DNA of 40,412 nt from a virus, in IMG/VR virus record IMGVR_UViG_3300027747_000111, positions 1 through 40,412 of that record, one strand, 5' to 3'. Each line of letters opens with the position of its first letter. Position 1 is the first letter of the stretch. A program made the position numbers and the translations under genes. Of this stretch, positions 5,878-39,830 are shown one piece after another. Below the pieces are notes generated by a model. That model was not told where the DNA came from. It made no database searches and saw only the letters and a program-made list of their open reading frames with translations.

Positions 5878-6986
5878 TGGCAGACATATTTTCAGGTATT
5901 GCACCACCCAATGTCAATACTACACAAACCTCGCAGACCATAGCTCCTGCCCAGTATTTGGGATTTTTGAGTAATTTGGGTACTGCAGGAACTAGTGCTT
6001 TAAATCCTAATCAAACTCTTGAAGGCAATTTAAATGCAGGTGCTCCCTATGTTGCACCATTGTCTCAGTTGCAAAATAACATTTATGGCACTCCCGAAGG
6101 TCAAGCAAATACTCAAAATTTATTACTAGCAGGTTTGAATCCACTAAATGCAGGAGCACAAACAGCACAGAATGCATCTCAAAACATAGGTTCTAGTCAG
6201 ATCAATAACTTTTTGAACCCTTACACTAATGCAGTTAACAGAAATTTAGAGACAAATACTGCACAAAATATTAATCAAAGCATCTTACCTGCTTTACAGG
6301 CCATGGGAGTATCTTCAGGTAGTACAGGTTCACAGAGGCTTATGAATGCTACTGGGCAGACCCTTGGAGGCATTCAACAAGGTTTGGGTGCTCAGGAGTC
6401 TGCCAATATGTCTCAAGCCTACAAAGATGCTGTAACACAAGCCCTCCAACAACAACAGAACCAAGGCCAAATAGCTAATGTACAAGGTCAATTAGGAACA
6501 GGGCTTGAGAGCGCAACAGTTCAGGGATTAAACGCAGGAGCAAGCTTAGGAGCACAATCACAGGCCCAAAACCAAGCACTGATCAATGCACCTTTGAATA
6601 CTGCTACTAATGTGGCAGGACTTCTTAGGGGTTATACAGTACCTACAGCAACGACTCAAACCTACTCTGGCCCTGCATCTAGTTATGGGGCTTCTCCATT
6701 AGGTCAAATAGCAGGACTAGCTTCATTATTCGCAGGTGGTAACAATAGCGCTGTAAGTGGCATAAAAAGCTTGTTTAGTGGCTCTGGCAGTGGTGGTCTA
6801 TTCAAGTTTAACTCTGATGGTAGTGCTGATTTAGGTGGTGGTTTGACTTTAAACTCTGATGGAACAATCAGTGGTGGATCAAGTACTTCTAACACATTTA
6901 GTAATGCCAATTCTCCAACTAATGCTGAAATTGAAGCATCTTGGGGTGATTTTGGTAAACCCAACAATCCCGGCATGATCGACTAA
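5877..6986 (+). CDS. Gln/Asn/Ala-rich virion protein, probable ejection protein
   Basis: This protein has 369 residues, low in charge and very rich in Q, N, A, G and S. The segment around residues 112-165 (FLNPYTNAVNRNL, then ALQAMGVSSGSTGSQRLMNA) follows the NPY...helix...GSR pattern of internal or ejection-type proteins in podovirus tail cassettes. A Gln-rich helix (QALQQQQNQGQ) follows, and the C-terminus is Gly/Ser-rich with NSDG repeats. No enzymatic motif is visible. The start overlaps the previous stop by one base (TAATGG). An RBS-like AAGGA lies in the 9-base gap before the next gene. Role inferred from context and composition. Confidence 0.7.
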   Translation: MADIFSGIAPPNVNTTQTSQTIAPAQYLGFLSNLGTAGTSALNPNQTLEGNLNAGAPYVAPLSQLQNNIYGTPEGQANTQNLLLAGLNPLNAGAQTAQNASQNIGSSQINNFLNPYTNAVNRNLETNTAQNINQSILPALQAMGVSSGSTGSQRLMNATGQTLGGIQQGLGAQESANMSQAYKDAVTQALQQQQNQGQIANVQGQLGTGLESATVQGLNAGASLGAQSQAQNQALINAPLNTATNVAGLLRGYTVPTATTQTYSGPASSYGASPLGQIAGLASLFAGGNNSAVSGIKSLFSGSGSGGLFKFNSDGSADLGGGLTLNSDGTISGGSSTSNTFSNANSPTNAEIEASWGDFGKPNNPGMID

Positions 6987-6995
6987 GGACTAAAT

Positions 6996-8669
6996 ATGGC
7001 ATTACCAACTTTAAATCCTAGCGTTATTGGTGGTGGAGACCCAAGAAGAACTTATCTATCTACAAATGAGATTATGAGTCAAGTTACTGGTGCTCCTCCT
7101 ATGGGACAACCTCCTGCTCAATCAGGTCAGTATGCACCTTTGACTCCTCCTGCACCTCCTGTTCAAGAACAAGCTCGTGGAGCAAGTGTAGAAACTCCAT
7201 TGGCTCCATTGGCTACGAAAACAACCGAGCCATACAAGAACAAGTATGATCAAATATATGATGAAGCTGAACAATTACTGTCTAAGTCTTTAGAGCAAAA
7301 ACAACCCTTTAGCAACATGGGTTTGGCTTTATCTAGAGGCTTCTTTAGACCAACTAAGACAGGTAGTTTTTTTGAATCTTTAGGTAACGTAGCTGAAGAA
7401 GTTGGAAAATCTCAAGATCAAGAAGCTAGAGAAAATGTAACTAATCTACAAGCTAGGATGGCGTTAGCTCGTCAAGGATCTGAGCGTCAGCGTGAAAAAG
7501 ACATTGAAGAAACTATGGGCAACTTGTATCAGCAGACTCCCAAAGGTCTGAGGATGAGTCCAGAGATGGCTATGAAACTAGCCTCTATTACTAAAGATCC
7601 AAAGTTCTTGCAACAATTGATTGCAGAACAAAAACAAGAAGCATTGTCAACAGTTGGTAATCAATTGATTACAACCACACAATATATTAAGCCTGATGGC
7701 ACTGTAGAAGCCAAGTTCAAGATCAACCCTGCTAAGTTTGGTGAGTATGTCAAGCTAACTGGAGATCCATTAGGTGCTTCTGAAAAACTTGCAGATGCTA
7801 TCAAAAAAATGAGAGCAAGTGGAATGATAGGTGAAATGGGGGATACGTCCAACCCATTTGACACCTTGAAGTTGACTGCTGAAATGCTAGGCAAACAAGG
7901 TGAGGGATATAAGGGTTTGATTGACCATTACTCCAAGCTTGCACCATCCATGGATCCAGAGACTGCGGCTAAGAAAGCCACCGAACTCAACCAACAAATG
8001 CAACAGCACTTGGACAGAAACGCTCAAATGGCTAACGCCATGATGATCGCAACGACCAATCAGGCTATAGCTCAATCACAACACGCTTTTGCAAATCAAT
8101 TGAAACAATCTGAAATTGATAGAAAGATTGAAGAAGCTAAAGAAAAGAAAGATTTGAAAGAAACCGATAGACTGGAAAAACTTAGAGCACAAGAAACGCC
8201 TTTGAAAGATTTAGCTTTCAAGGCTGAAAGTTTGAGAAATCACCCCGGCCGTTCTACTGGTACGTTCCCTGTTCTTGGTGGTGTTTTGTCTAAAATTCCT
8301 ACATTGGAAGCTAGAGACTTTGCAAATCAACTTGAAAGTTTAAAATCTGCAAGTTTTATTGCAAACATTCAAAGCATGAAAGGTTTTGGAGCTTTGTCTA
8401 ATGCTGAAGGTTCTAAGATTACCAACTTAATAACTACTCTTGATCCACAAGGATCCAAAAAAGCTTTTGATGCATCTCTAAACATGATTGATCGTTATGT
8501 AAGAAATGGTATTGAAAATATCAATAGACAGAGTAGGGGTGAAAAGCCAGTTTTCCTTGAGCCAGATGAATTATTAAAAGGTTCATCAACTTCTTCTCAA
8601 ACTCCTACACCATCTCCTATGCCCCAAATAGGTGGATTCAAAATCATTGGTGTTGAAAAGGCTAAATAA
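6996..8669 (+). CDS. Probable internal virion / DNA-ejection protein (557 aa)
   Basis: After a Pro/Gln-rich N-terminus (about 35-75) the protein is almost entirely helical, with a strongly charged coiled-coil stretch around residues 375-405 (KIEEAKEKKDLKETDRLEKL). The segment near residues 445-475 (ARDFANQLESLKSA, MKGFGALSNAEGSKI) resembles the LKGxGALSxxEG motif I associate with podovirus ejection and internal core proteins. The C-terminus is again Pro/Ser-rich. It follows the previous gene after 9 bases with AAGGACTAAATATG as RBS and start, and overlaps the next ATG by one base (TAATGG). Function is inferred from family pattern and cassette position. Confidence 0.65.
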   Translation: MALPTLNPSVIGGGDPRRTYLSTNEIMSQVTGAPPMGQPPAQSGQYAPLTPPAPPVQEQARGASVETPLAPLATKTTEPYKNKYDQIYDEAEQLLSKSLEQKQPFSNMGLALSRGFFRPTKTGSFFESLGNVAEEVGKSQDQEARENVTNLQARMALARQGSERQREKDIEETMGNLYQQTPKGLRMSPEMAMKLASITKDPKFLQQLIAEQKQEALSTVGNQLITTTQYIKPDGTVEAKFKINPAKFGEYVKLTGDPLGASEKLADAIKKMRASGMIGEMGDTSNPFDTLKLTAEMLGKQGEGYKGLIDHYSKLAPSMDPETAAKKATELNQQMQQHLDRNAQMANAMMIATTNQAIAQSQHAFANQLKQSEIDRKIEEAKEKKDLKETDRLEKLRAQETPLKDLAFKAESLRNHPGRSTGTFPVLGGVLSKIPTLEARDFANQLESLKSASFIANIQSMKGFGALSNAEGSKITNLITTLDPQGSKKAFDASLNMIDRYVRNGIENINRQSRGEKPVFLEPDELLKGSSTSSQTPTPSPMPQIGGFKIIGVEKAK

Positions 8670-10435
8670 TGGCTGATGCAATCTACAAAGTACAAACTCC
8701 TGATGGTTCTATCTTAACGATACAAGGCCCTGAGGGTGCTACGCCTGAGCAAATAGAGAATGTTGCTCGTGAGCAATACATGGCACAAAAAGCTCCCACT
8801 GACACAAGTGGAGGAGCCGCCACTGGTGTCTTCCCACAGATGACTGGTCGTAGGCAATTGCAAGACACTGAGCGTTCTGCCAATATGCCTCAAGCTGTGG
8901 CTGAGTCTGCTCTTGCAGGATTGATGTCTGCCCCTGCCGCACTTGCTCAATTTGCCAATGTACAGGCTCCTGCTGACATAGTGCAAAGGCTTAGACAACA
9001 CGCATCTGATATATCCTATCCTGCAGTATCTACAGCAGGTTCTTTGATGGGTGAGGGTGCTATGGTTGGCCCTTTAGCCATGAAAGCTTATCAAATGGCA
9101 GGCAAGATACCAAGTGCTTTAGGTAAGTCAGAGTTATTCAAATCTGGCATTGGTGGATTGACTTCTGGTCTTTTAACACCTACAAAACCTACAGATAGTT
9201 ATGGTGAGTTCTTAGAAGAGAAAGTTCCTGCTACATTGGCCTCGACTGCAGGAGGTGCCCTTGTAGGTAAGGGTACGCAGATGTTGATGAATCCCAAGGT
9301 TACGCCTGAGATGCAGAAGTTGATTGATATGGGGATCAAGGAGTTTACCCCGGGGCAACTCGCAGGGCAGATCCCCTTCATTGGCAAAGCTCTTCAAAAT
9401 ACCGAGAAGCTTGCTACCAGTATGCCCATATCAGGTATGCTGATTCGTAACGAGCTTGAGAGCGTCAACAAGAGCATGAACAAAGCTGTTGCTAACGAAG
9501 CCTTAAAGCACATTGGCGAACAGTTGCCAAAAGGTATTGAGGCAGGCACAGAGATGATGTCTTTCTTAAATAACAAGGTTAACAACTCTTACACTAACAT
9601 AGCCAATAAGATTGACTTTACGCCTAAACCAAATACCCTGTCTAATTTAGCAAGTGTTGAAGTAAATGCTTTGAGGGGTTTACATCCTGATAAAAAAGAA
9701 GAATTTGCTTCTATTATTAAAGACAATTTTTATACGCCTTTGCTTCAAGGAAATTACAAATTAACAGGCCAACAATTCAGGGATGCTGAGAGTGATTTAG
9801 GCACATTAGCTAAAGACTTAATGAGTGGTAGTGACGCACAAAATAGAAGGCTTGGTAAAGCTGTAAGGGCATTTCAAGAGGGTTTGAGGGATGAATTAGC
9901 TAATGTCAACCCTGCTCATGCCAAAGAACTTAAAGGCATCCACGAGTTCTTCAAAAGGTATTTAAGAATAGAAGATTCTGCTAGAAAGTTGGGGGCAGAA
10001 GGAAGCGTATTTACTCCATCTCAGTTTGCCTCCTCTACCCACAAGATGGGCACAAACGCCCAACAAGCCACCAGAACTGGCCTGATGGAGCCACAAGCAG
10101 AAAACATTAAGAATGTACTTGGCCCAACATTGCCTGATAGCTTTACAGCACAGCGTTTAATGACTGGGCAAGGTATGGGTAAGCTTGTGGGAGGAACTGC
10201 TGTAGAGGGGCTAAGTAACACAGTTGCAGGATTGGGTATGCCTTTGGCATTAACTGGTTCTATGTACAATCCAGTTTCTAGAAAACTATTATCTAATGTA
10301 GTTACTTCACCAAGGCCACAATTTGTTAAGAATGCCCAACCTTATGCATCTAGTGGATTGTCTGCCTTAACTGGTATGAGCAATGCACAGCCTGATTTAA
10401 CAGACTTAGGGACAATCAATGTCCCTTCTAGATAA
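8669..10435 (+). CDS. Probable internal virion / ejection protein with N-terminal GATPEQ domain
   Basis: The first ~36 residues (YKVQTPDGSILTIQGPEGAT, then PEQIENVAREQY) form a small module common at the N-terminus of phage ejection and large virion proteins. The rest (to residue 588) is helical and Ala/Gly-rich, with hydrophobic segments around 70-100 and 505-530 but no lytic transglycosylase or protease motif that I can see. It is the last gene of the + strand late cassette and ends 31 bases before a strong terminator. Together with the three upstream genes it probably makes the proteins injected ahead of the genome. That role is inference. Confidence 0.65.
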   Translation: MADAIYKVQTPDGSILTIQGPEGATPEQIENVAREQYMAQKAPTDTSGGAATGVFPQMTGRRQLQDTERSANMPQAVAESALAGLMSAPAALAQFANVQAPADIVQRLRQHASDISYPAVSTAGSLMGEGAMVGPLAMKAYQMAGKIPSALGKSELFKSGIGGLTSGLLTPTKPTDSYGEFLEEKVPATLASTAGGALVGKGTQMLMNPKVTPEMQKLIDMGIKEFTPGQLAGQIPFIGKALQNTEKLATSMPISGMLIRNELESVNKSMNKAVANEALKHIGEQLPKGIEAGTEMMSFLNNKVNNSYTNIANKIDFTPKPNTLSNLASVEVNALRGLHPDKKEEFASIIKDNFYTPLLQGNYKLTGQQFRDAESDLGTLAKDLMSGSDAQNRRLGKAVRAFQEGLRDELANVNPAHAKELKGIHEFFKRYLRIEDSARKLGAEGSVFTPSQFASSTHKMGTNAQQATRTGLMEPQAENIKNVLGPTLPDSFTAQRLMTGQGMGKLVGGTAVEGLSNTVAGLGMPLALTGSMYNPVSRKLLSNVVTSPRPQFVKNAQPYASSGLSALTGMSNAQPDLTDLGTINVPSR

Positions 10436-21407: not shown

Positions 21408-21755
21408 ATGACAGTAGGTCAGAAAACAGGTGGTAGACAGGTAGGAACGCCCAACAAGGCTACGCAAGAGGCTAGGCAGGCCATAGCTTCATTTGTGGAT
21501 GGAAACGCTCATAGGCTCACTGAGTGGCTCGACAAGGTAGCTGATGGAGACCCAGAGTATGAGATCAAGCCCAATCCTGCCAAAGCCTTTGAACTCTTCC
21601 AGAGCGTAGTGGAGTATCACATTCCCAAACTAGCTCGTTTAGATCACACTGGTCAAGTGGATGGTCATATGACGATAGATGTCAAAGCCAAGGAAGTGGT
21701 GGCTGACTTGGTTAAGAACATCGAACTCAAGCGTCAGTTGAAAAATGCAGACTGA
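21408..21755 (+). CDS. Terminase small subunit
   Basis: A 115-residue protein. The N-terminal GGRQVGTPNKATQEARQAIA is the 'GR..GTPNK.T.EAR' motif of small terminase-like phage proteins, followed by helices and a C-terminal helix (EVVADLVKNIELKRQLKN). It should recognise phage DNA and hand it to the large subunit, whose gene overlaps it by 11 bases. GAGG plus AAT spacing lies upstream of the ATG. Confidence 0.8.
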   Translation: MTVGQKTGGRQVGTPNKATQEARQAIASFVDGNAHRLTEWLDKVADGDPEYEIKPNPAKAFELFQSVVEYHIPKLARLDHTGQVDGHMTIDVKAKEVVADLVKNIELKRQLKNAD

Positions 21756-23181
21756 CATTCTGGATGACATTCAAGAATACTTAGAGAACCCAGAACTTCA
21801 GGCAAACCTAAATCATTTATCCCTAGAGGAGCTTACAGCCTTCAAATGGCACATGAGTTGGTTAGCCAACGCCCATGACCATCAGATTGTCCCTTCAGGG
21901 GATTGGTGGAACATTTGGCTCCTATTAGCAGGTAGGGGGGCAGGGAAGACCAGAACAGCGTCAGAAACAATTGGAAGGTGGGCATGGGAGACTCCTAACT
22001 CTAGGTGGCTATGTGCAGGCCCTACCTCTAGTGACGTGAGGGGAACCATGTTTGAGGGGGACTCTGGACTCCTGAATGTTATCCCCCAAGAATTGATCAA
22101 AGACTACAACAAGAGCTTTCACGAGCTTTACCTGACCAATGGCTCCTTACTGAAGGGTATCCCTGCCTCAGAGCCTGAGCGTTTCAGGGGAGGCCAGTGG
22201 CATGGTGCTTGGTGCGATGAGTTAGCCGCATGGGACTACATCACAGACGCTTGGGATCAAATCCAGTTTGCAGTACGCCTAGGCGCCAAGACAAGGATAA
22301 TCTGCACCACTACGCCTAGACCAAAGGACTTGATCGTGGACTTGGTAGGTAGGGATGGGGATGATGTGGTGGTGACCACAGCCTCGACCTACACTAACCT
22401 AGCTAACTTAGCACCCTCATTCAGAAAGCAGATCCTCCAATACGAAGGCACCAAATTAGGAAAACAAGAGATTTATGCTGAAATCCTAGATCCTGAGGAC
22501 ACTGGCATCATTAAGAGGTCTATGTTCAAGCTTTGGCCTTCTGGTAAAGCTTTCCCTAAGTTTGAGTACATTGTCCAAAGCTACGACTGTGCAACCTCAG
22601 AGAAGACTCAGAACGATGCCACTGCTTGTATAACCCTTGGAGTCTTTAAACCCACTGATGGCCCAATGAGTGCCATGGTGATCGACTGTTGGCAAGATAG
22701 ACTCCAGTACCCTGATCTACGCCCCAAGGTCAAAGAAGAGTTCGAGGTGGTGTTTGGCGAGGGTAAGGACAAGAAGAGGGTGGACTTGATACTAGTGGAG
22801 GACAAGTCAGCAGGCATTCAGTTGATCCAAGACCTTCAGAGAGCACATTTGCCTGTTCGGGCTTATAACCCGGGTCGCATCGACAAAGTCCAAAGGCTCA
22901 ATGTGGTCAGCCCTGTCATAGTTCATGGTCGAGTCTGGATACCTGAGAGTGGTAAGAACAAGGGCTTTGTCAAAGACTGGGCAGAAGGCATGGTCAGCCA
23001 AGTCTGCGCCTTCCCTGAGTCTGCTCACGATGATTATGTAGATGCCATGACCCAAGCTTTGAGGTTCCTAAGGGACACTGGATGGTTAGATGTTGATGGG
23101 CCAAGGCCAGATGACTACGATGAAGACGATTATGTGGACTCAGGAATGGCTAAGTCCAAAGGCAACCCCTATGCACAGTAA
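21745..23181 (+). CDS. Terminase large subunit
   Basis: A 478-residue packaging motor and nuclease. Walker A GRGAGKT (63-69), Walker B AWCDEL (155-160) with the catalytic Glu159, and the ATPase coupling motif CTTTP (187-191). The RNase H-like nuclease domain has SYDCA (Asp281), LVEDKSAG (Glu352) and HDDYVDAMTQAL (Asp429/430/433). All motifs are in order and spacing is normal. It docks on the portal and fills the capsid. The start overlaps the small subunit gene, so synthesis is coupled. Confidence 0.95.
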   Translation: MQTDILDDIQEYLENPELQANLNHLSLEELTAFKWHMSWLANAHDHQIVPSGDWWNIWLLLAGRGAGKTRTASETIGRWAWETPNSRWLCAGPTSSDVRGTMFEGDSGLLNVIPQELIKDYNKSFHELYLTNGSLLKGIPASEPERFRGGQWHGAWCDELAAWDYITDAWDQIQFAVRLGAKTRIICTTTPRPKDLIVDLVGRDGDDVVVTTASTYTNLANLAPSFRKQILQYEGTKLGKQEIYAEILDPEDTGIIKRSMFKLWPSGKAFPKFEYIVQSYDCATSEKTQNDATACITLGVFKPTDGPMSAMVIDCWQDRLQYPDLRPKVKEEFEVVFGEGKDKKRVDLILVEDKSAGIQLIQDLQRAHLPVRAYNPGRIDKVQRLNVVSPVIVHGRVWIPESGKNKGFVKDWAEGMVSQVCAFPESAHDDYVDAMTQALRFLRDTGWLDVDGPRPDDYDEDDYVDSGMAKSKGNPYAQ

Positions 23182-23240: not shown

Positions 23241-25328
23241 ATGGCTGATGCACTACTAAGCGGTGTCTTGCCCGCTATTTATTCCTTTGGCGATAGGGCT
23301 AAACGCCAACTCAAAGACCTTTTGTCTAATCCATCTGGAGTGGTGCAACAAGCTTCTGGTCAACTCATTGACAATCAAAAGCAAATTGCAGACTTGCATA
23401 ACCAAGCTTTTGGTGATTCACGCAATCCACTCAAAATCACAAATAGACAAGCATTCAATGAATTGGCTGACAAAGCGACCAATTCCATGATGGACATGAA
23501 TGCAGGTGTGATTAAGCCTAAAACAGCAAAGTCATTAGGTCTCCGTCCCTCGGAATTTGATGCTTATCAAAAGGCTTTTGAGCAAATTCAAGAGAGTGGT
23601 GGCATTCCTAGATCGATGAAAGAAGTTGCCAAGCTTACAGGTAAAGAAGAAGACATTGCTCGTTCTATGATGACAAACCCTGTTTTTAAGGCCAAGGGAT
23701 TGGAGCAAATACCTGTTAGCTCAGTAGAAGAAGCATTGGCAAATAGAAATAGATATAGGGCAGAGCCTGCAAGAACCCCCGGCCCTAAAGCCTCTGAGAA
23801 AGAATGGGCTGAATGGGGTGCCAAGCATGGTGTCAATATGAGTGTCAGCCCTGATGTGCCACTTGGTATATCTGACTTGACTACGGGCAGAGAGGTGAAG
23901 ATTCCCGGCGGTCTTGAGGGCACTTTTACCATACCTGATATGTTCAAGATCAAGGCAATGAATATTGATCCAAATTCTTTGCCCAAAGATGTGCATGATC
24001 AATTGATGAAGAAGTTCATTAGGACGCATAAGATTGAAAATCCAGATGAAGTGGATATGTTCAATAGGCTGAACTTTGCTCTATTGTCTCCAAATGCTCC
24101 ATTGACTCCCAACGAGTTCTTAGCACAAAGAGCTAGACTTGTGAACATGGATGAGCTAAAGGCTTTAGCAGGTCGTGTTGGAGAGCCAAACTTATCTAAG
24201 ACTGCTGATTTGCAATTGGGCACTGGAGCCGCAGGTCGTGGTGGTATGGGTGTTTCAGGTACAGCAGATTTAGGTAATCAGGCAGTATTGGCTAAGTTAA
24301 TATTAGATAAACCTGAAATGTTTAAGCTTCAGCCTAATGAGACTATGAGGGATGTGACCACAAGGGTTATGAATCAGGTGCCGGGTCTTGGGCCAAAGAC
24401 TGCATCTTTAGGTACACCATGGTTAGACCTCGAAAAGGCCAACACTTCTGCTGTTGACTTGCATATGATCAGAAACTCATATAAACAAATGTTGGATGAT
24501 CCAGATGTGGGTGAGGCATTTAGGGGAAGAATGTCAGCACTTTTGGGTACTAAACCTACTACAAAAGCAATATTAGAAGCAGATCCTAATAAAGTAGAAG
24601 ATGCCGCCATAAACGTAATTGGTGGCACACAAATGGGAAGAATGTATAGATTGAAGAGTGGTGAACTCAATGATATTCCTAGTGTTGCAACACCAGAAAA
24701 ACTTGCTTATGAGCCTAAAACATTTCAAGATTTCAATCCTTTCTACAGCAAAGTAGTTGATTATGTTGATCAGTCAAGAGGTCAAAATCCAATATTAGAG
24801 TTGTTTCCTGAGCAATGGCGTAAATGGGATATGTATCGTGGGCGTATTGAACCCCATGAGTTTGCCCACCCAGACTTTAGAAAGCTTCCAAGGCAATCAT
24901 GGTCTGAAATGGCTGATGCATTGCAAGCACATAAGAATGCAGGATACACACAAGCTAATTCTCCAGTAATGAAAAAAAGTGATTGGCGTGAGCTTTATTA
25001 TGGAGGCCATTTGCCTTTGCCAATCTTAGGTGCAGAAGCAATTAGAGAAGCACAGCCTGAGCCTGAAATGAAACGTGGTGGAAGTGTGTCTATCAGTAGT
25101 AACCCTGACACCATGTTTATGGAACTGGCAGACAGGAAGTTAGCTAAAGGTGGTGCAGTCCTTAGCTTAGAGACCAATCTGCCTGCCTTACCTAAGACAG
25201 ACTATCACTCAATAGACAAGTTAATGGCACACATATCTAAAGAACACAAAATACCACCACAAAAGCTACACGATGACTTTGTTGCAAAGCACCATATGAC
25301 ACCAGATACATGGATTAAAAGGAAATAA
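23241..25328 (+). CDS. Large virion-associated protein with HhH-GPD-like motif
   Basis: A 695-residue protein between terminase and portal. Residues 376-410 read VMNQVPGLGPKTASLGTPWL...TSAVDLHM, matching the helix-hairpin-helix and following Asp of HhH-GPD DNA glycosylases (LPGVGRKTA...VDTHV in endonuclease III), with Lys386 and Asp406 kept, 20 residues apart. Upstream GGMGVSGTADL and downstream ILELFPEQWRKWD, RIEPHEFAHPDF belong to the same phage family as I recall it. The C-terminus has KRGGSVSI and AKGGAVLS. Possible role: a polyvalent protein packaged or injected with the genome. Enzymatic activity is unproven. Confidence 0.65.
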   Translation: MADALLSGVLPAIYSFGDRAKRQLKDLLSNPSGVVQQASGQLIDNQKQIADLHNQAFGDSRNPLKITNRQAFNELADKATNSMMDMNAGVIKPKTAKSLGLRPSEFDAYQKAFEQIQESGGIPRSMKEVAKLTGKEEDIARSMMTNPVFKAKGLEQIPVSSVEEALANRNRYRAEPARTPGPKASEKEWAEWGAKHGVNMSVSPDVPLGISDLTTGREVKIPGGLEGTFTIPDMFKIKAMNIDPNSLPKDVHDQLMKKFIRTHKIENPDEVDMFNRLNFALLSPNAPLTPNEFLAQRARLVNMDELKALAGRVGEPNLSKTADLQLGTGAAGRGGMGVSGTADLGNQAVLAKLILDKPEMFKLQPNETMRDVTTRVMNQVPGLGPKTASLGTPWLDLEKANTSAVDLHMIRNSYKQMLDDPDVGEAFRGRMSALLGTKPTTKAILEADPNKVEDAAINVIGGTQMGRMYRLKSGELNDIPSVATPEKLAYEPKTFQDFNPFYSKVVDYVDQSRGQNPILELFPEQWRKWDMYRGRIEPHEFAHPDFRKLPRQSWSEMADALQAHKNAGYTQANSPVMKKSDWRELYYGGHLPLPILGAEAIREAQPEPEMKRGGSVSISSNPDTMFMELADRKLAKGGAVLSLETNLPALPKTDYHSIDKLMAHISKEHKIPPQKLHDDFVAKHHMTPDTWIKRK

Positions 25329-25330
25329 TT

Positions 25331-27943
25331 ATGGCTACTGAAATGCCTATTGAACAAGACTACCAACGCTTTGTGGATGGCGTGTCTGAGCCTGCAGAGG
25401 ATGGTAGCGTCACTGTTGACCTTCCTGAGGATGGCGTGTCTGAGCCTGCAGAGGATGGTAGCGTCACTGTTGACCTACCTGAGGAAGAGATGGACATCGA
25501 GGAACTGCCTGATGGCTCTGCAATTATCACGACTGATGACTACCAAGGCCCTGAGGAGGACGAGGACTTCTACCAAAACTTGGCTGAGGAGTTTGATCCC
25601 TATGAGCTAAACCGTATTGCTATGCGTTATGTAGACCTCGTAGAGAACGACAAGCAGAGTCGTGAGGAGCGAGACAAACAGTACGAAGAAGGATTGAAGA
25701 GAACAGGGTTGGGTAAGGATGCCCCCGGAGGGGCTAACTTCCTCGGAGCTTCCAAGGTAGTCCATCCCATCATGGCTGAGGCTTGCGTAGACTTTGCCTC
25801 CAGAGCCATCAAGGAGATGTTCCCACCTGATGGCCCAACTAGAACAAAGATTATTGGTGATGTTGACAAGAAGAAAGTTGAAGTAGCAGAGCGTAAACGT
25901 GACTACATGAACTGGCAGTTAACAGAGCAAATCGAAGAGTTCAGGGACGAACAAGAGCAGTTACTGACCCAACTTCCTCTTGGTGGCTCACAGTACCTCA
26001 AAATGTGGTATGACGAAGGCAAAAAACGTCCCTGTACAGAGTTTGTGCCCATAGATAACATCTACCTACCCTATGCCTCAGGCAACTTCTACACTGCCCA
26101 AAGGGTGACTGAGGTCAATACCATTACCTCTTGGGAGTTCCAACGAAGGGTGGACTCAGGTCTCTACAGAGACATCAGTATGATCAGAGCGTCTGCAGAG
26201 CCTGAGATGAGCTACGCTGAAAAAGCAAACGCCAAGATCGAAGGTAAGAAATTTCAAGACAATGACGATGGAGTCAGGAACGTATTCCACATCTATACAT
26301 GGCTAGAGATGGATGAAGACAGACGCACTAAGGGCGAGACTGCTCCTTACATCATGATGATTGATGAGTTAGACATGAAGTGCGTTGGCCTCTATCGGAA
26401 TTGGGAAGAGGGCGATGAGACCATGACCAAGTTGGATTGGCTTATAGAGTTCAAGTTCATACCTTGGCGTGGAGCTTATGCGATTGGATTGCCTCATCTC
26501 ATTGGGGGACTGTCTGCGGCTCTCACAGGATCGCTTCGTGCTCTCCTAGACTCTGCACATATCAACAATTCAGCAACAATGTTGAAGATCAAGGGTGCGA
26601 GGATGTCTGGTCAAACCCAACAAGTTGAGGTCACTCAGGTGGCTGAGATTGAGGGTGCCCCGGGCGTTGACGATGTACGCAAGATAGCCATGCCCATGCC
26701 TTTTAATCCTCCTAGCCCAGTGCTGATGGAGTTGTTGGGTTGGCTCACAAATGCGGCTAAAGGGGTGGTGTCCACCTCAGAAGAGAAGATTGCAGAAGCA
26801 GGCAACAATATGCCTGTAGGAACAGCCCAAGCCCTTATCGAACAAGGTGCTCACGTCTACTCAGCCATCCATGCCCGATTGCACGAGTCACAAGCTCGTG
26901 TCTTGAAAGTTTTGGGTAGGCTGAATAGATGGTATCTAGATGACCAAAGACGTGGTGAGATGGTCGTTGACTTGGACATCCATAGGGAAGACTTCAAGCG
27001 AAACACTGATGTTATACCAGTCTCTGATCCACATATTTTCTCTGAAACCCAGAGAATGGCTCAGACTCAGGCTGTGATGTCCATCATGGCTCAGTACCCA
27101 CAAGCTTTTAACCAAAAGGCAGTGCTTGAGCGATTTTTGAAGCAGATGAAGATACCTCAGATCAATGAGTTAATGATCATGGAGCCTGTAGAGGACATGA
27201 TTGATAGCTCACAAGAGAATGTCTTGATGATGACTGGTCAGCCTGCTAAAGCATATGACACCCAAGATCACCTTGCTCACATACAAAGTCACTTAGATTT
27301 CTATCAAAATCCAGTGTTTGGTGGTGCAAACCCATTGATCATGCCTTCTTTGATACAACCTATGGTCACTCATATACAACAACACTTTGGTATGTGGTAT
27401 CAATCTAGGATGAATGAGTATGTTGAGAAGGCCATGAGGGGCAAGATGATTGACTACGACAACCCTGAGATTACTCCCAAGGCTGACAAACTGTATGCAT
27501 TGGCCTCTCAGCACGTCCAACAAGACTCTGAGCAGACATTTGCCCACGTTATGCCCATTTTCCAACAGATGATGCAACAAATTCAGCAATTAAAACAGCA
27601 AGCACAGCCCCCAATGGACGCTGACGCTCAGGCTTTGGTGCAAACTTCTATGGCTGAGACACAGCGTAGGGCACAAAAAGACCAAGTTGACGCTCAAATG
27701 GCTCAAGCCAAGCTAGTTAATAGCCAACAATTGGAACAAGCCAAGCTAAAAGCTGATGCTGACAAGTTTATGGCTGAAAAACAGATGGATTTAGCTATAA
27801 ATACTGAAGATAACCGCACCAAAGAGCGTATTGAATCTGCAAAATTGACCCATGAAGGGGGCAAATTGCAACACGAGCAGGTGAAAACTGCACTGGGACT
27901 TGAAAACCAAGCTCAGAACTTTCTAGGAGGACAAAATGTCTAG
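25331..27943 (+). CDS. Portal protein
   Basis: An 870-residue podovirus-type portal. Recognisable segments are FLGASKVVHPIMAEACVDFA, EMFPPDGPTRTKI, LPLGGSQYLKMWYDEG and FVPIDNIYLPYASGNF, the clip and wing region of large P22/T7-type portals. The C-terminal ~120 residues are a Gln/Ala-rich coiled coil (barrel-like). The N-terminus carries an 18-residue sequence twice in tandem (residues 16-33 and 34-51). The portal nucleates capsid assembly and is the DNA gate. AAAGGAAATAATT provides the RBS. Its end overlaps a 50-residue gene. Confidence 0.9.
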   Translation: MATEMPIEQDYQRFVDGVSEPAEDGSVTVDLPEDGVSEPAEDGSVTVDLPEEEMDIEELPDGSAIITTDDYQGPEEDEDFYQNLAEEFDPYELNRIAMRYVDLVENDKQSREERDKQYEEGLKRTGLGKDAPGGANFLGASKVVHPIMAEACVDFASRAIKEMFPPDGPTRTKIIGDVDKKKVEVAERKRDYMNWQLTEQIEEFRDEQEQLLTQLPLGGSQYLKMWYDEGKKRPCTEFVPIDNIYLPYASGNFYTAQRVTEVNTITSWEFQRRVDSGLYRDISMIRASAEPEMSYAEKANAKIEGKKFQDNDDGVRNVFHIYTWLEMDEDRRTKGETAPYIMMIDELDMKCVGLYRNWEEGDETMTKLDWLIEFKFIPWRGAYAIGLPHLIGGLSAALTGSLRALLDSAHINNSATMLKIKGARMSGQTQQVEVTQVAEIEGAPGVDDVRKIAMPMPFNPPSPVLMELLGWLTNAAKGVVSTSEEKIAEAGNNMPVGTAQALIEQGAHVYSAIHARLHESQARVLKVLGRLNRWYLDDQRRGEMVVDLDIHREDFKRNTDVIPVSDPHIFSETQRMAQTQAVMSIMAQYPQAFNQKAVLERFLKQMKIPQINELMIMEPVEDMIDSSQENVLMMTGQPAKAYDTQDHLAHIQSHLDFYQNPVFGGANPLIMPSLIQPMVTHIQQHFGMWYQSRMNEYVEKAMRGKMIDYDNPEITPKADKLYALASQHVQQDSEQTFAHVMPIFQQMMQQIQQLKQQAQPPMDADAQALVQTSMAETQRRAQKDQVDAQMAQAKLVNSQQLEQAKLKADADKFMAEKQMDLAINTEDNRTKERIESAKLTHEGGKLQHEQVKTALGLENQAQNFLGGQNV
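25376..25483 (+). repeat. 54-bp in-frame tandem duplication in the portal gene
   Basis: Copies at 25376-25429 and 25430-25483 differ at one base only (CTT/CTA). They encode DGVSEPAEDGSVTVDLPE twice. In-frame and with a synonymous difference, this is a recent but real duplication rather than an assembly join. The core DGSxxVDLPE also occurs once near the N-terminus of the scaffold protein. Confidence 0.95.
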
Positions 27944-28283: not shown

Positions 28284-28704
28284 CACCGTAGCTTCTAGCG
28301 AAGCTGAGATAAATTGGGCCTTTCCAGTTGTAGATCCGGGAGCGAAGCCATTAGGTGGAAGAATCTTAGTTCAACTCAGAAGAACTAAGACGAGAACGAC
28401 TAGTGCAGGGATCATTTTGGTTTCAGAGACCAAAGAGACTGAAAAGTGGCAAAACATGGTAGCTAAGGTCATTGAGATTGGCCCTCTAGCATTCAAAAAC
28501 CGAGACACTATGCAAGGTTGGCCTGAAGGCTCATGGTGTGAGGTTGGAGACTACATCCGTGTCCCAAAATGGGGTGGTGACAGGTGGGAAGTTGAAGTTG
28601 AGGGTGAAAAAGACGAGGATAAAGCCTTGTTCATGATCCTAAACGACCACGAAGTCATAGCCAAAGTCACTTGTGATCCACTAGCAATGAGGGCGTTCAT
28701 ATGA
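28273..28704 (+). CDS. GroES-like co-chaperonin (Cpn10 family)
   Basis: A 143-residue protein with the Cpn10 fold pattern: PLGGRILVQLRRT as first strand, a mobile loop at about 38-58 holding the GroEL-contact tripeptide in SAGIILVSET (IIL, as IVL in GroES), then VAKVIEIGP, VGDYIRVPKWGG and FMILNDHEVIAKV as the last beta strands. It would cap host GroEL and help fold the major capsid protein, as T4 gp31 does. Its place between portal and scaffold supports that. GAGG precedes the ATG, and the end overlaps the scaffold ATG (ATGA). Confidence 0.85.
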   Translation: MSDSTVASSEAEINWAFPVVDPGAKPLGGRILVQLRRTKTRTTSAGIILVSETKETEKWQNMVAKVIEIGPLAFKNRDTMQGWPEGSWCEVGDYIRVPKWGGDRWEVEVEGEKDEDKALFMILNDHEVIAKVTCDPLAMRAFI

Positions 28705-29642
28705 GCACAGAAACAACAGAAAAGTTAGACATTAACGTAAAAGAAAAGGTTGATGGTTCAGCATTGGTCGATCTTCCTGAGGATTTAATGCCTGAGGAAG
28801 AAGAACAAAAGGCTGAGGGTGGTTCAGTTCCTGATGATGGTGGAGAAGACCATCCAGATGACACCCAAGCCATTCGTGATGCTAGACGAGCAAAGCGTAG
28901 GTACAAGAAAGAGATAGCCAAAGCCACTTCTAGCGAGAAGGAAGCCCAACTGAACCTTCTTAGAAGACAAAACGAGGCTCTTATGGGGCGTCTAGCAGTT
29001 GTGGAGCACAAAACCCACAGTGCAGACTTAGCTCGTATAGACAAGGCTATTGAAGACCAAGAGCTTAGATTGCAGTATGCCAAGATGAAGATGTCTGAGG
29101 CCATGCAAGTAAGTGATGGTGATGCTTTTAACAAAGCACAAGAGATGTGGGACGAGACTAGGACAGCTATTAGAGACTTAAAAGGCTTTAAAGATGCTCA
29201 GGTCAGACCACGTCAAACTAACAATATTCCTGATCCAAAGGTTCAGAAGCACGCATCTGACTGGATGGAGAGGAATTCTTGGTACAACCCCAATGGGACT
29301 GATACCGATTCAAGAATCGCCAAAGTAATTGACGAAGACCTCGTCAAAGAGGGTTGGAATCCTTCTGATTCCGAATATTGGGATGAGTTAGATAATCGCT
29401 TGTCAAAGCGTATCAACCCTAGATACAATGACGATATGGACGGTAAACCGTTTGTTAAGAGACCAAGGAGTGTGCAGACTGGCACTGGACGTGAGACTGT
29501 TTATGGTTCTTCTAACCGAACTCAAATCACGCTAAGACCCGAACAGGTTCGAGCGATGAAAGATGCAGGTTTCTGGGATGATCCTCAGAAGAGAGCCAAG
29601 ATGATCAAGCGATATGCCCAAGAAGCTAGAAATAACACTTAA
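28701..29642 (+). CDS. Scaffolding protein
   Basis: A 313-residue protein with an acidic disordered N-terminus (Glu/Asp-rich to residue 55), a long charged coiled coil (about 57-155; KRRYKKEIAKATSSEKEAQL, LQYAKMKMSEAMQ) and a basic C-terminus (QKRAKMIKRYAQEA) that would bind the capsid protein. This layout and the position just before the capsid genes are typical of podovirus scaffolds. The N-terminus has VDGSALVDLPEDL, shared in part with the portal N-terminus. Translation is coupled to the co-chaperonin. Confidence 0.8.
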   Translation: MSTETTEKLDINVKEKVDGSALVDLPEDLMPEEEEQKAEGGSVPDDGGEDHPDDTQAIRDARRAKRRYKKEIAKATSSEKEAQLNLLRRQNEALMGRLAVVEHKTHSADLARIDKAIEDQELRLQYAKMKMSEAMQVSDGDAFNKAQEMWDETRTAIRDLKGFKDAQVRPRQTNNIPDPKVQKHASDWMERNSWYNPNGTDTDSRIAKVIDEDLVKEGWNPSDSEYWDELDNRLSKRINPRYNDDMDGKPFVKRPRSVQTGTGRETVYGSSNRTQITLRPEQVRAMKDAGFWDDPQKRAKMIKRYAQEARNNT

Positions 29643-32840: not shown

Positions 32841-34067
32841 ATGGGACAATTTAAACCAATGGTGAAGATGGAGACCACTGAGCCTTCAGTTGAACTGAAG
32901 CTCAAAAAAGGTGGTCATGTTTCCATGAAGAAAAAGTCTGAGCATGGTCACAAGATGATGGATGGTGGTATGGCAGGGCCAATGATGGCTCGTGGAATGC
33001 CTCCTGCTATGATGGCTATGGCTCCTAAAAAGCCTCCAATGGCTATAAGACGTAGGGCTATGACAGCCATGCCTACTGCTATGCCTACACCTGTGATGAA
33101 AAAAGGTGGAGAAATGGAGTCACCAAAAGAGCACAAAGCTGAAATGAAAGAAATGGGCAAGATTGAGAAAGAACTCAAGCACCATGAATCCATGAAGGCT
33201 AGTAAAGCTCATAAGGGTCTCAAGTCAGGTGGACAAGCATCAGGTGAGATGATTGATGCTGATGAAACCAAAACTACCATGAAAGGCAATTTAAAGCCTT
33301 ACGAAAAAACTAAAATGGATACTTCCAAGAAAGACAGTGCTCATGGCACTGGTTCTGTTAAGAAAGGCAATGGAGGTGGTTACAAGAAGGGTGGATCTAT
33401 TAACTCAGAGACTTCTTCTGGTGATTACGACACAACTTTGGTTCATCAAGCCAAGCCTGACAATGCTAATGGTACTGGTGGCGTAAGAATGTCCAACGCA
33501 GGTGGTTTTAAAAAGGGTGGAAAAGCCAAATATGCCATAAGTGGTAACGTAAACAAGTACGCTGTTGACAATGTTGTTGGAACTCCTAAGGGCGTGACCA
33601 ATACAACAACTGGTGCTGTTAAAGAGTCAAATGGTGGTGGTTACAAGAAAGGTGGTGCATTAAAAAAGCACTTCGCCACGGGGGGCAGTGTTAATCGCAC
33701 TGGTCATGCCGTGGCAATGCCACAAGGACAAAAGCCTGCATCTAAGCCAGTTCACATAAACCAATTATCTGGCACCTTTAAAAAGGGTGGTAAGGTCATG
33801 AAGTTTAGTGGTGAAGAAGGCAGTGCTGTTTCAAAGCCTCCAGTAAATGACTTATCTAAAGGTGCTTTTGACAAGACACTCCAAGGTGTATACAACGAAG
33901 ATATGGATACTGCTAAGTACATTAGAAGTATTCCTTCAAAGATATACCAAGGAGCTAAAAATCTGATGGGTATGAATGAAGCCAAGCCTGCAGGCAGTGT
34001 TACCAAGAGTAAAGAATCGGTAACTGTAACACCTGCTAAAAAGCGTGGTGGTAGTATTAAGTGTTAA
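32841..34067 (+). CDS. Basic Met/Lys/Gly repeat protein with KKGG motifs
   Basis: A 408-residue, strongly basic, low-complexity protein. Residues 35-95 are Met/Pro-rich. Then four imperfect repeats end in GGGYKKGG or GGFKKGG (about 165-186, 208-228, 255-273, 310-318). The motif K/R-x-GG plus a small or hydrophobic residue occurs at least eight times here, and also in the 1415-, 695- and 99-residue proteins. No enzyme motif. Likely a DNA- or capsid-binding virion protein or a substrate for processing. RBS AGGAGG lies seven bases before the ATG. Confidence 0.65.
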   Translation: MGQFKPMVKMETTEPSVELKLKKGGHVSMKKKSEHGHKMMDGGMAGPMMARGMPPAMMAMAPKKPPMAIRRRAMTAMPTAMPTPVMKKGGEMESPKEHKAEMKEMGKIEKELKHHESMKASKAHKGLKSGGQASGEMIDADETKTTMKGNLKPYEKTKMDTSKKDSAHGTGSVKKGNGGGYKKGGSINSETSSGDYDTTLVHQAKPDNANGTGGVRMSNAGGFKKGGKAKYAISGNVNKYAVDNVVGTPKGVTNTTTGAVKESNGGGYKKGGALKKHFATGGSVNRTGHAVAMPQGQKPASKPVHINQLSGTFKKGGKVMKFSGEEGSAVSKPPVNDLSKGAFDKTLQGVYNEDMDTAKYIRSIPSKIYQGAKNLMGMNEAKPAGSVTKSKESVTVTPAKKRGGSIKC

Positions 34068-36177: not shown

Positions 36178-36693
36178 ATGACTACTACCTCAGTATATTG
36201 GATCAAAGCACCTCATCACTCTGATATGTTTTCAGAGGGGTATATTGGTGTGTCCAAAAATGCTGAGAATCGTTGGAAGTATGGGCATCATTGGGCATTC
36301 AAGCAAGGCAAGCACGATAACCCAATATTAGTCAATGCTGTCAATAAGTATGGTTGGGATAACTTGGTCAAGCAAGTTGTTTTAATTGCAGATGAAGATT
36401 ACTGTTACGACATTGAGAGCAAGTTGCGTCCTTCTGAGAGTATTGGTTGGAACATCAATGTAGGTGGCACAAAACCTCCTGTTACCAAACCTAGAGGGGT
36501 AGACTACGTTAGCCCATTAAAAGGCGTACCAAGACCCACACCTTGGCTTGTTGGCAAATCTAAGCCTATGCCAGAAAACTTTGGCAGTCTTGGTGGCAAA
36601 GCAGGCAAGGGTCGCAAACAAACGCCTGAGCAGATCGCCAAGCGTGTTGCATCTCGTAGGGCTACATTACTAGCGCAAGGGAGAACTGTGTAA
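36178..36693 (+). CDS. GIY-YIG homing endonuclease with NUMOD3 motif
   Basis: A 171-residue protein. SVYWIKAP replaces the GIY part, GYIGVSKN (21-28) is the YIG part, then Arg32 in NRW and Glu80 in YDIESKLRP are the catalytic Arg and Glu, and WNINVGG closes the nuclease domain. The C-terminal KGRKQTPEQIAKRVASRR is a NUMOD3-type DNA-binding repeat. Free-standing enzymes of this kind cut relatives lacking them and spread their own gene. It sits alone between tail genes, with a weak RBS. No intron boundary is visible in the neighbours. Confidence 0.8.
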   Translation: MTTTSVYWIKAPHHSDMFSEGYIGVSKNAENRWKYGHHWAFKQGKHDNPILVNAVNKYGWDNLVKQVVLIADEDYCYDIESKLRPSESIGWNINVGGTKPPVTKPRGVDYVSPLKGVPRPTPWLVGKSKPMPENFGSLGGKAGKGRKQTPEQIAKRVASRRATLLAQGRTV

Positions 36694-37041: not shown

Positions 37042-38916
37042 ATGGCAAATGTAACCATCACGCAATTACCAACAGCAAGTGCTCTAACAGGCACTGAGGC
37101 AGTTCCAGTCGTTCAAAATGGGGTAACTGTACAGACAACCACAGGAGCTATCCAAGCTACTTCTAACCTGTCTACTTACCCCTTCTTGATGACTCAAGCT
37201 ACAGGTGCTTTGGGTTCATCTAGATACATCACCACAGGTGCAGGAATGACCACTGTAGATGGTGGTGCAGGCTCTACTTTTGCTATTAACTTGGTTGGTG
37301 CTCCTTTGGCCTTGGTGACCTCTGGAACAGGTTTCCAAGTTAAGACAGGCAGTACCACATTGATTAACAGATCAGTTGCTGTATCTGGCTCAGGGCTTTC
37401 TATATCTAATGGCAGTGGTATTAGTGGTGACCCTACAATTAGTTTGTCAGGGATTATGGCTAATTTTGCCTCAGTTTCAGGCACAGGACTGTTAACTGTA
37501 AGTGGGACTGTTGTTAGTCAAACAACCATTACAGGTACTGCCAATTCAATTACTATTACCAATGGTAATGCCTCTGGTGGTGCTCCAACAATTGCAATTG
37601 CTGACAACCCTGTTTTAACAGGTACTTCAGGATTGACTATCCCTGCAGGCACAACTGCTCAAAGATCAGGCTCTAATGGTACTTTAAGGTATAACACCTC
37701 AACAGGTACCTTTGAGGGTTATGCTAATGGAGCTTGGGGCGCAATAGTAACAGGTTCTGGCGTAACTTCTATTGCAACTGGAACTGGTTTAACTGGTGGC
37801 CCAATCACATCTATAGGTACTATTTCTTTAGCCAATACTGCTGTAACGGCTGGTGCTTATACCAATGCAAACATCACTGTTGATGCTCAAGGTAGGATTA
37901 CTTTAGCTGCGAATGGAAGCGCTGGGGGGGTAACAACGTTTCAAACATCACTGAGTGGGTTAACACCTTCAACTGCATCTACTGGAGCCATTACTTTGGC
38001 TGGTACTTTGGGTGGTTCAAGTGGTGGAACAGGAGTTAATAATGGTTCTAGCACAATCACTATAGCAGGTAACTTGACCCATTCAGGTGCTTTTACGCAA
38101 AGTTTTACGGCTACAGCTAACACTGCGGTAACATTACCAACAAGTGGAACTTTAATTTCAAGCGTAACCGCTTTGTCAGGTGCAGTTACAGGAACGCCAT
38201 CAAGCACAACTTATTTGCGTGGAGATGGTACTTGGGCAACTATAAGCACAAGTTCAGGAACGGTTACTTCAGTATCGTTTACAGGTGGAATAATATCGGT
38301 GGCAACGGCTACCACAACCCCTGCTTTGACAGTCGCTGGTACTTCAGGTGGTATTGTTTATTTCAGTTCAGCAAGCACATGGGCATCTAGCGCAGTATTA
38401 ACTGCGAATGCCATTATGATTGGAGGGGGTGCAGGTGTTGCTCCAAGCACCATAACAACTGGAACTGGTGTTGTTACTGCTTTAGGCGTGAATACAGGCT
38501 CTACAGGAGCTTTTGTAGTCAATGGTGGGGCATTGGGTACACCAAGCTCTGGAACCGTTACAAACCTTACTGGAACCGCCTCTATCAACATCAACGGCAC
38601 TGTAGGCGCAACAACTGCAAATACAGGAGCGTTCACAACGGTATCAGCAACTGGTGTAATAACATCCACTTTGGCAACTGGTACTGCACCGTTCACGGTA
38701 GCTAGTACGACTCAGGTGGCTAACTTGAATTCTGCAACTTCTGGAACTGCAACAAATGCAACCAATGTGGGATTGTCTGCAGGTACTGGGGCAACAAATT
38801 ACTTGACATTTAGTGCATCTGCTACAGGTAATCAACCTCTTACAACAAACACATTATTGACTTACAATTACACAAATAATGCGCTCACAGCAGGCATCAA
38901 CGGAGGAACATTCTAA
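37042..38916 (+). CDS. Tail fibre-like protein, mosaic (624 aa)
   Basis: The N-terminus (MANVTITQLPTASALTGTEA, VPVVQNGVTVQTTTG) is the usual virion-attachment start of aquatic phage fibre proteins. The remainder is a Thr/Gly/Ser-rich chain of short beta repeats (TGTGLTGGPI, SGTVTSVSFTGG, TGAFTTVSATG) typical of trimeric fibres. No receptor enzyme is seen. DNA style changes after about 37.75 kb (more GCG, CGG, and the first GCWGC site since 32.65 kb, at 37906), suggesting the distal part was exchanged. Opposite-strand ORFs over this gene are repeat shadows. Ends in a TAATGG overlap. Confidence 0.75.
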   Translation: MANVTITQLPTASALTGTEAVPVVQNGVTVQTTTGAIQATSNLSTYPFLMTQATGALGSSRYITTGAGMTTVDGGAGSTFAINLVGAPLALVTSGTGFQVKTGSTTLINRSVAVSGSGLSISNGSGISGDPTISLSGIMANFASVSGTGLLTVSGTVVSQTTITGTANSITITNGNASGGAPTIAIADNPVLTGTSGLTIPAGTTAQRSGSNGTLRYNTSTGTFEGYANGAWGAIVTGSGVTSIATGTGLTGGPITSIGTISLANTAVTAGAYTNANITVDAQGRITLAANGSAGGVTTFQTSLSGLTPSTASTGAITLAGTLGGSSGGTGVNNGSSTITIAGNLTHSGAFTQSFTATANTAVTLPTSGTLISSVTALSGAVTGTPSSTTYLRGDGTWATISTSSGTVTSVSFTGGIISVATATTTPALTVAGTSGGIVYFSSASTWASSAVLTANAIMIGGGAGVAPSTITTGTGVVTALGVNTGSTGAFVVNGGALGTPSSGTVTNLTGTASININGTVGATTANTGAFTTVSATGVITSTLATGTAPFTVASTTQVANLNSATSGTATNATNVGLSAGTGATNYLTFSASATGNQPLTTNTLLTYNYTNNALTAGINGGTF

Positions 38917-39830
38917 TGGCACAGTCAGGCTATACACCAATCATAACGTACAACAGTGGCACGACCACAAATGTACCTTTAGCGGCTAATTTAGCATCGG
39001 GTGAGTTAGCAATTAACTACGCTGATGGCAAATTGTTCTATAAGGATAGTGGTGGAGTTGTACAAACTATTGCATCAAAAGCAGGCAACATAAATGTTTC
39101 ATCATTTAGTGCAGGAACAACTGGTTTAACCCCTAACACAGCAACAACTGGAGCAGTAACGCTTGCTGGAACATTAGCTATTGCAAATGGTGGCACAGGA
39201 CAGACAACAGCATCTGCGGCTTTTAATGCTTTGTCTCCTATCACCACAACAGGTGATTTGATTCTTGGTAATGGAACTAATAGCGCAACAAGATTGGCAA
39301 TAGGTGCTAACACATACATTCTGACATCGAATGGAACTACAGCTTCTTGGGTAGCTCCTACTGCTGGCGTTTCTTTATCCGCCAACAATACTTGGACGGG
39401 CACACAAACATTTAACGGTACGTCAAGCATATTTGGTACGGTGTTGCTCGACTCTGCTGAAACTGTCAATGTGGTAGCTTCTGCCCCATCTTCAACAACT
39501 AATTACTATGTTCAAAGCGGATCAGTTCAGTATTACACATCTAATGCAGCGAACAACTGGACGCTTAATATTGCGTTTTCTAGCGGAACGTCATTAAATA
39601 CGGCATTGACTACAGGCCAATCAGTCACGTTTACTTTAGTCACAACTCAAAGCACTACGGCTTATTACAACAGCGCAGTCACAATAGATGGAACATCAGT
39701 CACGCCTAAGTGGATTGGTGGTGCGCCTACTGCGGGTAATGCGTCAGGATTTGATGTTTATAGGTTTGCCGTTATCAAGACTGCAAGTGCAACATATTCT
39801 GTTTTAGCTTCATTAACACAGTACAAATAA
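38916..39830 (+). CDS. Tail fibre-like protein (304 aa)
   Basis: MAQSGYTPIITYNSGTTTNV, LAANLASGELAINYADGKLF and YKDSGGVVQTIASK form a module I recall at the N-terminus of many aquatic phage tail proteins. GLTPNTATTGAVTLAGTLAI, ANGGTGQTTA is a second common fibre repeat. The C-terminal ~140 residues (TVNVVASAPSSTTNYYVQSG, PKWIGGAPTAGNASGFDVYR) form a beta domain likely at the tip. It contributes to the adsorption apparatus. One GCWGC site (39546) lies here, as in the neighbouring fibre genes. Confidence 0.75.
   Translation: MAQSGYTPIITYNSGTTTNVPLAANLASGELAINYADGKLFYKDSGGVVQTIASKAGNINVSSFSAGTTGLTPNTATTGAVTLAGTLAIANGGTGQTTASAAFNALSPITTTGDLILGNGTNSATRLAIGANTYILTSNGTTASWVAPTAGVSLSANNTWTGTQTFNGTSSIFGTVLLDSAETVNVVASAPSSTTNYYVQSGSVQYYTSNAANNWTLNIAFSSGTSLNTALTTGQSVTFTLVTTQSTTAYYNSAVTIDGTSVTPKWIGGAPTAGNASGFDVYRFAVIKTASATYSVLASLTQYK

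Follow-up and report, generated by a model that had tools for sequence, protein, structure and literature searches.

The OGG2 enzymes (Tm1821, PDB 3n0u; M. jannaschii, 3knt) are proteins of about 205 aa in which a helix-hairpin-helix (HhH) hairpin carrying a lysine is followed by a catalytic aspartate, with no Fe-S cluster, and their C-terminal lysine acts as the sensor telling 8-oxoG from G (PMC3397491). In endonuclease III (Nth), the hairpin and the aspartate lie in the motif LPGVGRKTA...AVDTH (K120 and D138), and this enzyme carries a 4Fe-4S cluster. Base excision also has a part in the conflict between phages and their hosts, as seen with Brig1, a glycosylase that bacteria use in defence and whose target is phage DNA (PMC11078745). 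The polyvalent proteins (Iyer et al. 2017, PMC5512222) are large multi-domain phage proteins encoded near packaging genes, which have been proposed to be injected together with the DNA. ART-PolyVal and PBECR5 are among their named domains, and the word glycosylase is absent from the main text of that article.

The locus examined here lies in an uncultivated viral sequence (IMG/VR record IMGVR_UViG_3300027747_000111), of which the whole stretch of 40,412 nucleotides that was analysed is termed the window. Between the TerL and portal genes, a long ORF, termed the carrier, starts 59 bp past the TerL stop, and the portal gene starts 2 bp past the carrier stop. The features are the following:

21745..23181, + strand: TerL (terminase large subunit; Pfam Terminase_6N 9e-21, Terminase_6C 1e-9; phrog_38 4e-26)
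23241..25328, + strand: carrier ORF, 695 aa, Cys-free, between TerL and portal
23241..23522, + strand: N-terminal conserved part, residues 1-94, kept in the sister phage L007 despite a different central module
23535..25004, + strand: predicted HhH-GPD glycosylase-like module, residues 99-588 (AF2 model, Foldseek match to OGG2, family alignment)
24087..24113, + strand: loop SPNAPLTPN, residues 283-291 (54-sequence alignment)
24378..24407, + strand: helix-hairpin-helix VPGLGPKTAS, residues 380-389, with the predicted catalytic K386 at 24396-24398
24453..24467, + strand: VDLHM, residues 405-409, with the predicted catalytic D406 at 24456-24458
24855..24869, + strand: HEFAH, residues 539-543, resembling the metallopeptidase HExxH (HEVMF in distant relatives)
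25041..25325, + strand: C-terminal linker/tail, residues 601-695, with the KRGGSVSISSNPDTMFMEL and KGGAV motifs
25331..27943, + strand: portal protein (phrog_1216 1.2e-17)

The glycosylase-like module is the single recognised module of the window's carrier, and sequence libraries do not name it. Searches of Pfam, NCBIfam, PHROGs and PDB sequences with the module gave nothing significant, the sole PHROG match of the carrier (phrog_10346, E 9e-9) being limited to residues 617-694 of its C-terminal tail. With the Pfam HhH-GPD model (PF00730), the window gave nothing at E<=10, whereas 14/14 control genomes were positive, and the best helix-hairpin-helix signal in Pfam was PF00633 (HHH), at E 0.11 only. 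Sequence searches are generally weak in this superfamily, as endonuclease III itself reaches human OGG1 only at E ~0.3-1. The best PDB sequence match, a benzoyl-CoA reductase (E 0.02-0.8), was dismissed, the alignment covering mainly a Gly-rich stretch.

The initial annotation had proposed that VPGLGPKTAS and VDLHM match the core of endonuclease III-type glycosylases, in which Lys386 and Asp406 are kept. Both motifs are indeed present in the ORF, and a regular expression combining them matches once among all window ORFs of at least 60 aa, while shuffling these ORFs, to a total of 22.9 million residues, produced no match. This expression was composed after the motif had been seen, so that the shuffle test is a loose bound on chance, and the stronger argument is conservation across the aligned sequences. 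From IMG/VR contigs we collected 125 module sequences, including overlapping loci of the same contigs, which reduce to 44 non-redundant ones (the window's and 43 others, with 48-95% identity to the window's). K386 and D406 are invariant in 125/125 of them, as are S283, G382, H539, E540 and H543, among others. More distant relatives were reached by using the motif EPHEVMFPG as a DNA pattern, which retrieved 30 loci with ORFs of up to 2693 aa, homology then being tested separately. These ORFs do carry a homologous module: 10 non-redundant sequences, lying inside giant phage proteins, have 27-36% identity to the window's (E 1e-34 to 1e-53; hhalign probability 100%), and their active-site region reads approximately G(L/F)xxKxxSF..VWQDPxxAxISAxDRHM. 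In two of these distant relatives (L142 and L157), a methyltransferase-like stretch (VNADIGGGRFDNATEFL...) is found directly N-terminal of the glycosylase-like module. When near and distant sequences are aligned together (54 non-redundant ones), 38 positions never vary, among them G382, K386, S389, S403, A404, D406 and M409, as well as S283, P284, L288 and N291 of the loop. The motif is thus real and not a product of chance, and the claim that both catalytic residues are kept, which their loss in homologues would have undone, stands in 125/125 near sequences and in 54/54 when the distant ones are included.

The nearest named entry is A0A6J5LUD9, an uncharacterised protein of an uncultured Caudovirales (53% identity, TM 0.87). 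A tblastn search of isolate phages with the module and four of its relatives gave no match, a plasmid search returned only an irrelevant amidase, and two scans of GTDB genomes, which were seeded with exact peptides and may overlook divergent copies, did not find the module. Since it was found neither in isolate phages nor in GTDB genomes, contigs of uncultivated viruses are the only source of the family in this analysis.

The structural prediction is in line with the proposed fold and active site. AlphaFold2, run on the 490-residue module with 44 sequences, gave a model with a pLDDT of 92 and a pTM of 0.90, in which the hairpin is formed by helix 271-281, VPGLG and helix 287-297 (module numbering), while D308, which is D406 of the ORF, caps and starts helix 309-320. 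When this model was compared by Foldseek to 350,542 PDB chains, the OGG2 enzymes came out at the top (3n0u, probability 0.97; 3knt, probability 0.91). These top matches are members of the HhH-GPD superfamily and would fit a six-helix core in the module, though their E-values (0.07-0.15) and their TM-scores (0.47-0.51, on the target only) are weak. The modest E-values may be partly due to the length of the module, more than twice that of OGG2. EndoIII (EndoIII-1), ROS1 and AGOG were among the weaker matches. In the search of viral models, weak matches were obtained to a 3-methyladenine glycosylase of a medusavirus and to an EndoIII of a halovirus. The glycosylase-like fold that the initial annotation had proposed is supported, its nearest structural relative being OGG2 and not one of the three enzymes named there for comparison (EndoIII, MutY and AlkA). 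The isolated core (residues 224-473) gave a poor model when predicted alone (pLDDT 66), so the predicted fold depends on flanking segments that are absent from known glycosylases; EndoIII-3 came first in the Foldseek search of this core model (probability 0.25-0.30), to which we give little weight as the model is poor.

Profile comparisons place the residues in the same register. Against a three-sequence alignment of EndoIII, hhalign gave P-values of 1.6e-4 to 3.1e-4, pairing K386 with K120 and D406 with D138, compared with 0.69-0.79 in the reversed control; the E. coli EndoIII query sequence was confirmed by a full-length match to 2abk. When the profile was built from the distant relatives alone, there was no match to EndoIII (P 0.10, control 0.12). 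A hairpin with a lysine, a G/P-rich loop and then an aspartate are found in the sequence, in the modelled secondary structure, in the hhalign register and in the invariance across the family. We consider the HhH-GPD fold class highly probable, and the module sequences very probably form an undescribed HhH-GPD glycosylase-like family.

TerL and/or portal genes lie within ~4 kb on the same strand in 38/43 non-redundant module contigs. The contigs fall into four groups: one has the order TerL-module-portal, as in the window, two share the order module-TerL-portal but differ in their TerLs, and the last has TerL-portal-module. Between group representatives, the TerL and portal proteins are mostly without significant similarity (the exceptions being one TerL pair at 36% and one portal pair at 41%), and the modules are 57-80% identical. 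On the module tree, the four groups need about the minimum number of changes, which implies that transfers of the module between lineages were few and old rather than constant. A replacement of the module is seen in the sister phage L007, whose TerL and portal are 97% and 96% identical to those of the window: residues 1-94 and ~601-695 of the carrier are kept, and the middle differs. L008, with a portal at 93%, has still other modules in place. Since both carry other modules, the locus is a polymorphic cargo site, and residues 99-588 are a mobile module. The alternative cargo of L007 (approximately L007:5283-6700) displays MGHSVRGY and IKGKGN motifs, MGHCVGGYC being found in L008 and L013; this type of cargo recalls PcfJ, and Pfam gives no match for it.

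Other relatives carry the module within larger proteins. In L016 (TerL 91% and portal 90% identical to the window's), a 1715-aa ORF has the module followed by ART-PolyVal (E 1.4e-12), and in the 2595-aa ORF of L140, it is accompanied by a weak ART-PolyVal as well as by PBECR5 (E 2e-22). The carriers thus show the disparate and exchangeable domains of polyvalent proteins (these two fusions and the swap in L007), and they are phage-encoded and close to portal and terminase genes; the module is a new kind of polyvalent-protein module. The C-terminal linker/tail of the carrier is also found between modules and at the ends of other polyvalent-type phage proteins. Its repeated form, (K)(K/R)GGxVxISxNPDTMFMEL, at 25077-25160 in the window, recurs between modules and at protein ends, also in L016, L008, L009 and L013, and a 408-aa ORF of the head-gene region (32841-34067) contains ~8 GG-type repeats, several of them KKGG, resembling these inter-module linkers. 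The recurring GG linker may serve the head protease as a tag for processing or packaging. A homing endonuclease-like ORF (phrog_314) lies among the late genes at 36178-36693.

Another feature of the carriers is their composition. Cysteine occurs at no module column in any of the 125 sequences, and in the near-family carrier ORFs as a whole, only 15 of 35,005 residues are Cys (0.043%); the other ORFs of the same contigs have 883 in 84,467 aa (1.045%), a 24-fold difference. The distant family follows the same trend (10 Cys in 42,992 aa for the carriers, 271 in 38,186 aa for the other ORFs), and no Cys at all is present in five carriers that are 2002-2595 aa long, one of which is truncated at a contig end. 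In the window, four adjacent ORFs at 1630-10435 (1415, 369, 557 and 588 aa, 2929 aa in total) are also Cys-free, and the four are likely internal or ejected virion proteins; the one at 6996-8669 has a match (E 1.3e-23) to phrog_2534, which is described as 'released from the phage upon host infection'. From this we infer that selection against cysteine accompanies ejection, although further long late ORFs of the window (28701-29642, 37042-38916 and 38916-39830) are Cys-free as well. The near-total lack of cysteine in the carriers may be a general sequence signature by which other ejected phage proteins could be recognised. Taken with the linkage to packaging genes, the polyvalent fusions and the module swapping, the exclusion of cysteine points to a packaged and injected polyvalent protein, and we hold the packaging and injection of the carrier to be rather likely.

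The explanation that we favor, with a probability of roughly 0.6, is that residues 99-588 are an HhH-GPD DNA glycosylase/AP-lyase, carried as the interchangeable cargo of a late-expressed, packaged and injected protein of the polyvalent type. The fold class, the invariance of the lysine and the aspartate, the module swapping and the packaging-gene linkage give it computed support, while catalysis, packaging and injection are what we infer. Catalysis by the module is a good deal more probable than not; for the fold class, catalysis and packaging with injection to hold all together, the odds are close to even. The N- and C-terminal parts that the carriers share would direct the protein into the head, from which it would enter the cell together with the DNA. 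By analogy with EndoIII and OGG (PMC11754123, PMC3397491), a base would then be flipped out while the SPNxPLxPN loop intercalates; other HhH glycosylases have a DNA-intercalating Gln or Asn at the corresponding loop position (PMC3397491), and SPNAPLTPN may be such an element. D406 would activate the attack on the flipped-out base, a Schiff base between K386 and the sugar would arise as the base is released, and the strand would be nicked by beta-elimination. Between an early repair of phage DNA that enters in a damaged state and an attack on host or defence-modified DNA, we slightly prefer the former.

That second target defines the alternative that survives best, a sub-case of the favored explanation: an active glycosylase/lyase injected early as a weapon or counter-defence against base-modified or damaged host DNA, or against an element protected by modified bases. 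The co-occurrence of the module with effector-type ART and PBECR nuclease domains and its polymorphism between sister phages speak for such a role, and Brig1 illustrates that glycosylases can be weapons in the opposite direction. Neither a host nor a substrate nor linked modification genes were found for it, though, and the link to the avoidance of C5-type sites that the initial annotation had put forward had to be given up. CCWGG is indeed scarce in the window (4 seen, 51.4 expected), as is CGCG (0 seen, 18.0 expected), while GCGC and ACGT are at half of their expected number. CCWGG is equally avoided where the carrier ORF lacks the module (1/12.9 seen/expected in L007, 0/18.0 in L008), and is not avoided in several phages that bear it (50/49.1 in L120, 80/71.0 in L128, 77/65.7 in L132, 112/104.6 in L084 and 122/122.3 in L092), so that avoidance does not follow the module. 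A weapon or counter-defence seems less likely than not.

Less probable still is a DNA-binding module derived from HhH-GPD, without glycosylase activity, that would act next to TerL and portal in packaging or in the assembly of the head. The module usually lies near these genes, and segments outside the core (PGGLEG and EQWRxWDxxRxRxEPHE) are conserved as strongly as the active site; this would nevertheless leave unexplained why both catalytic residues are strictly invariant at 27% identity. Moreover, the module is dispensable, as L007 replaces it with TerL and portal still 96-97% identical, and it pairs with several unrelated TerL and portal genes. The HEFAH motif could suggest a zincin-like metallopeptidase, as the near family never varies at H539, E540 and H543 and metallopeptidases are frequent in polyvalent proteins (PMC5512222). 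This reading, which we consider very improbable, is weakened by the AF2 model, where HEFAH lies outside a regular helix, by Foldseek, which has no peptidases near the top, and by the distant loci in which the second His is replaced (HEVMF), an observation that shows existence only, since it was with this motif that the loci were retrieved. That an unrelated protein resembles glycosylases by chance, to which the lack of a significant match in sequence libraries might lend credit, is on computation equally unlikely, the shuffles, the K/D invariance, the fold match and the profile register all being contrary to it.

The favored explanation, a glycosylase/lyase delivered as injected cargo, can finally be set against the known systems. 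OGG2 is the best PDB fold match of the module and shares with it the hairpin lysine, the aspartate that follows and the lack of an Fe-S cluster, but there is no detectable sequence match, and the module is viral, spans ~490 residues and is embedded in a polyvalent protein. Its HhH core is internal to the module, itself within a 695-aa ORF, so the C-terminal Lys sensor of OGG2 is absent and a specificity for 8-oxoG cannot be assumed. The motif of endonuclease III is found in register, whereas the 4Fe-4S cysteines of endonuclease III and MutY have no counterpart in the Cys-free module, which has large extra segments. The carriers resemble polyvalent proteins in their size, their multiple domains and their location, and the relatives of the module share ART-PolyVal and PBECR5 with them, yet no Pfam model matches the module itself. 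Brig1 likewise excises bases from DNA in phage-host conflict, but the module is encoded by the phage. No description of an injected base-excision enzyme as interchangeable phage cargo appears to exist among the reports that we found, which treat base-excision enzymes and injected polyvalent proteins only apart, while this locus joins them. If the module is active, a base-excision enzyme would be delivered from the virion. Somewhat tentatively, at slightly under even odds, we see here a Cys-free viral glycosylase/lyase family used as a swappable virion effector, which would excise bases at DNA entry either to mend the phage genome or to cut modified host or rival DNA. A module that uncultivated phages conserve, and that had no annotation, gains a testable name.
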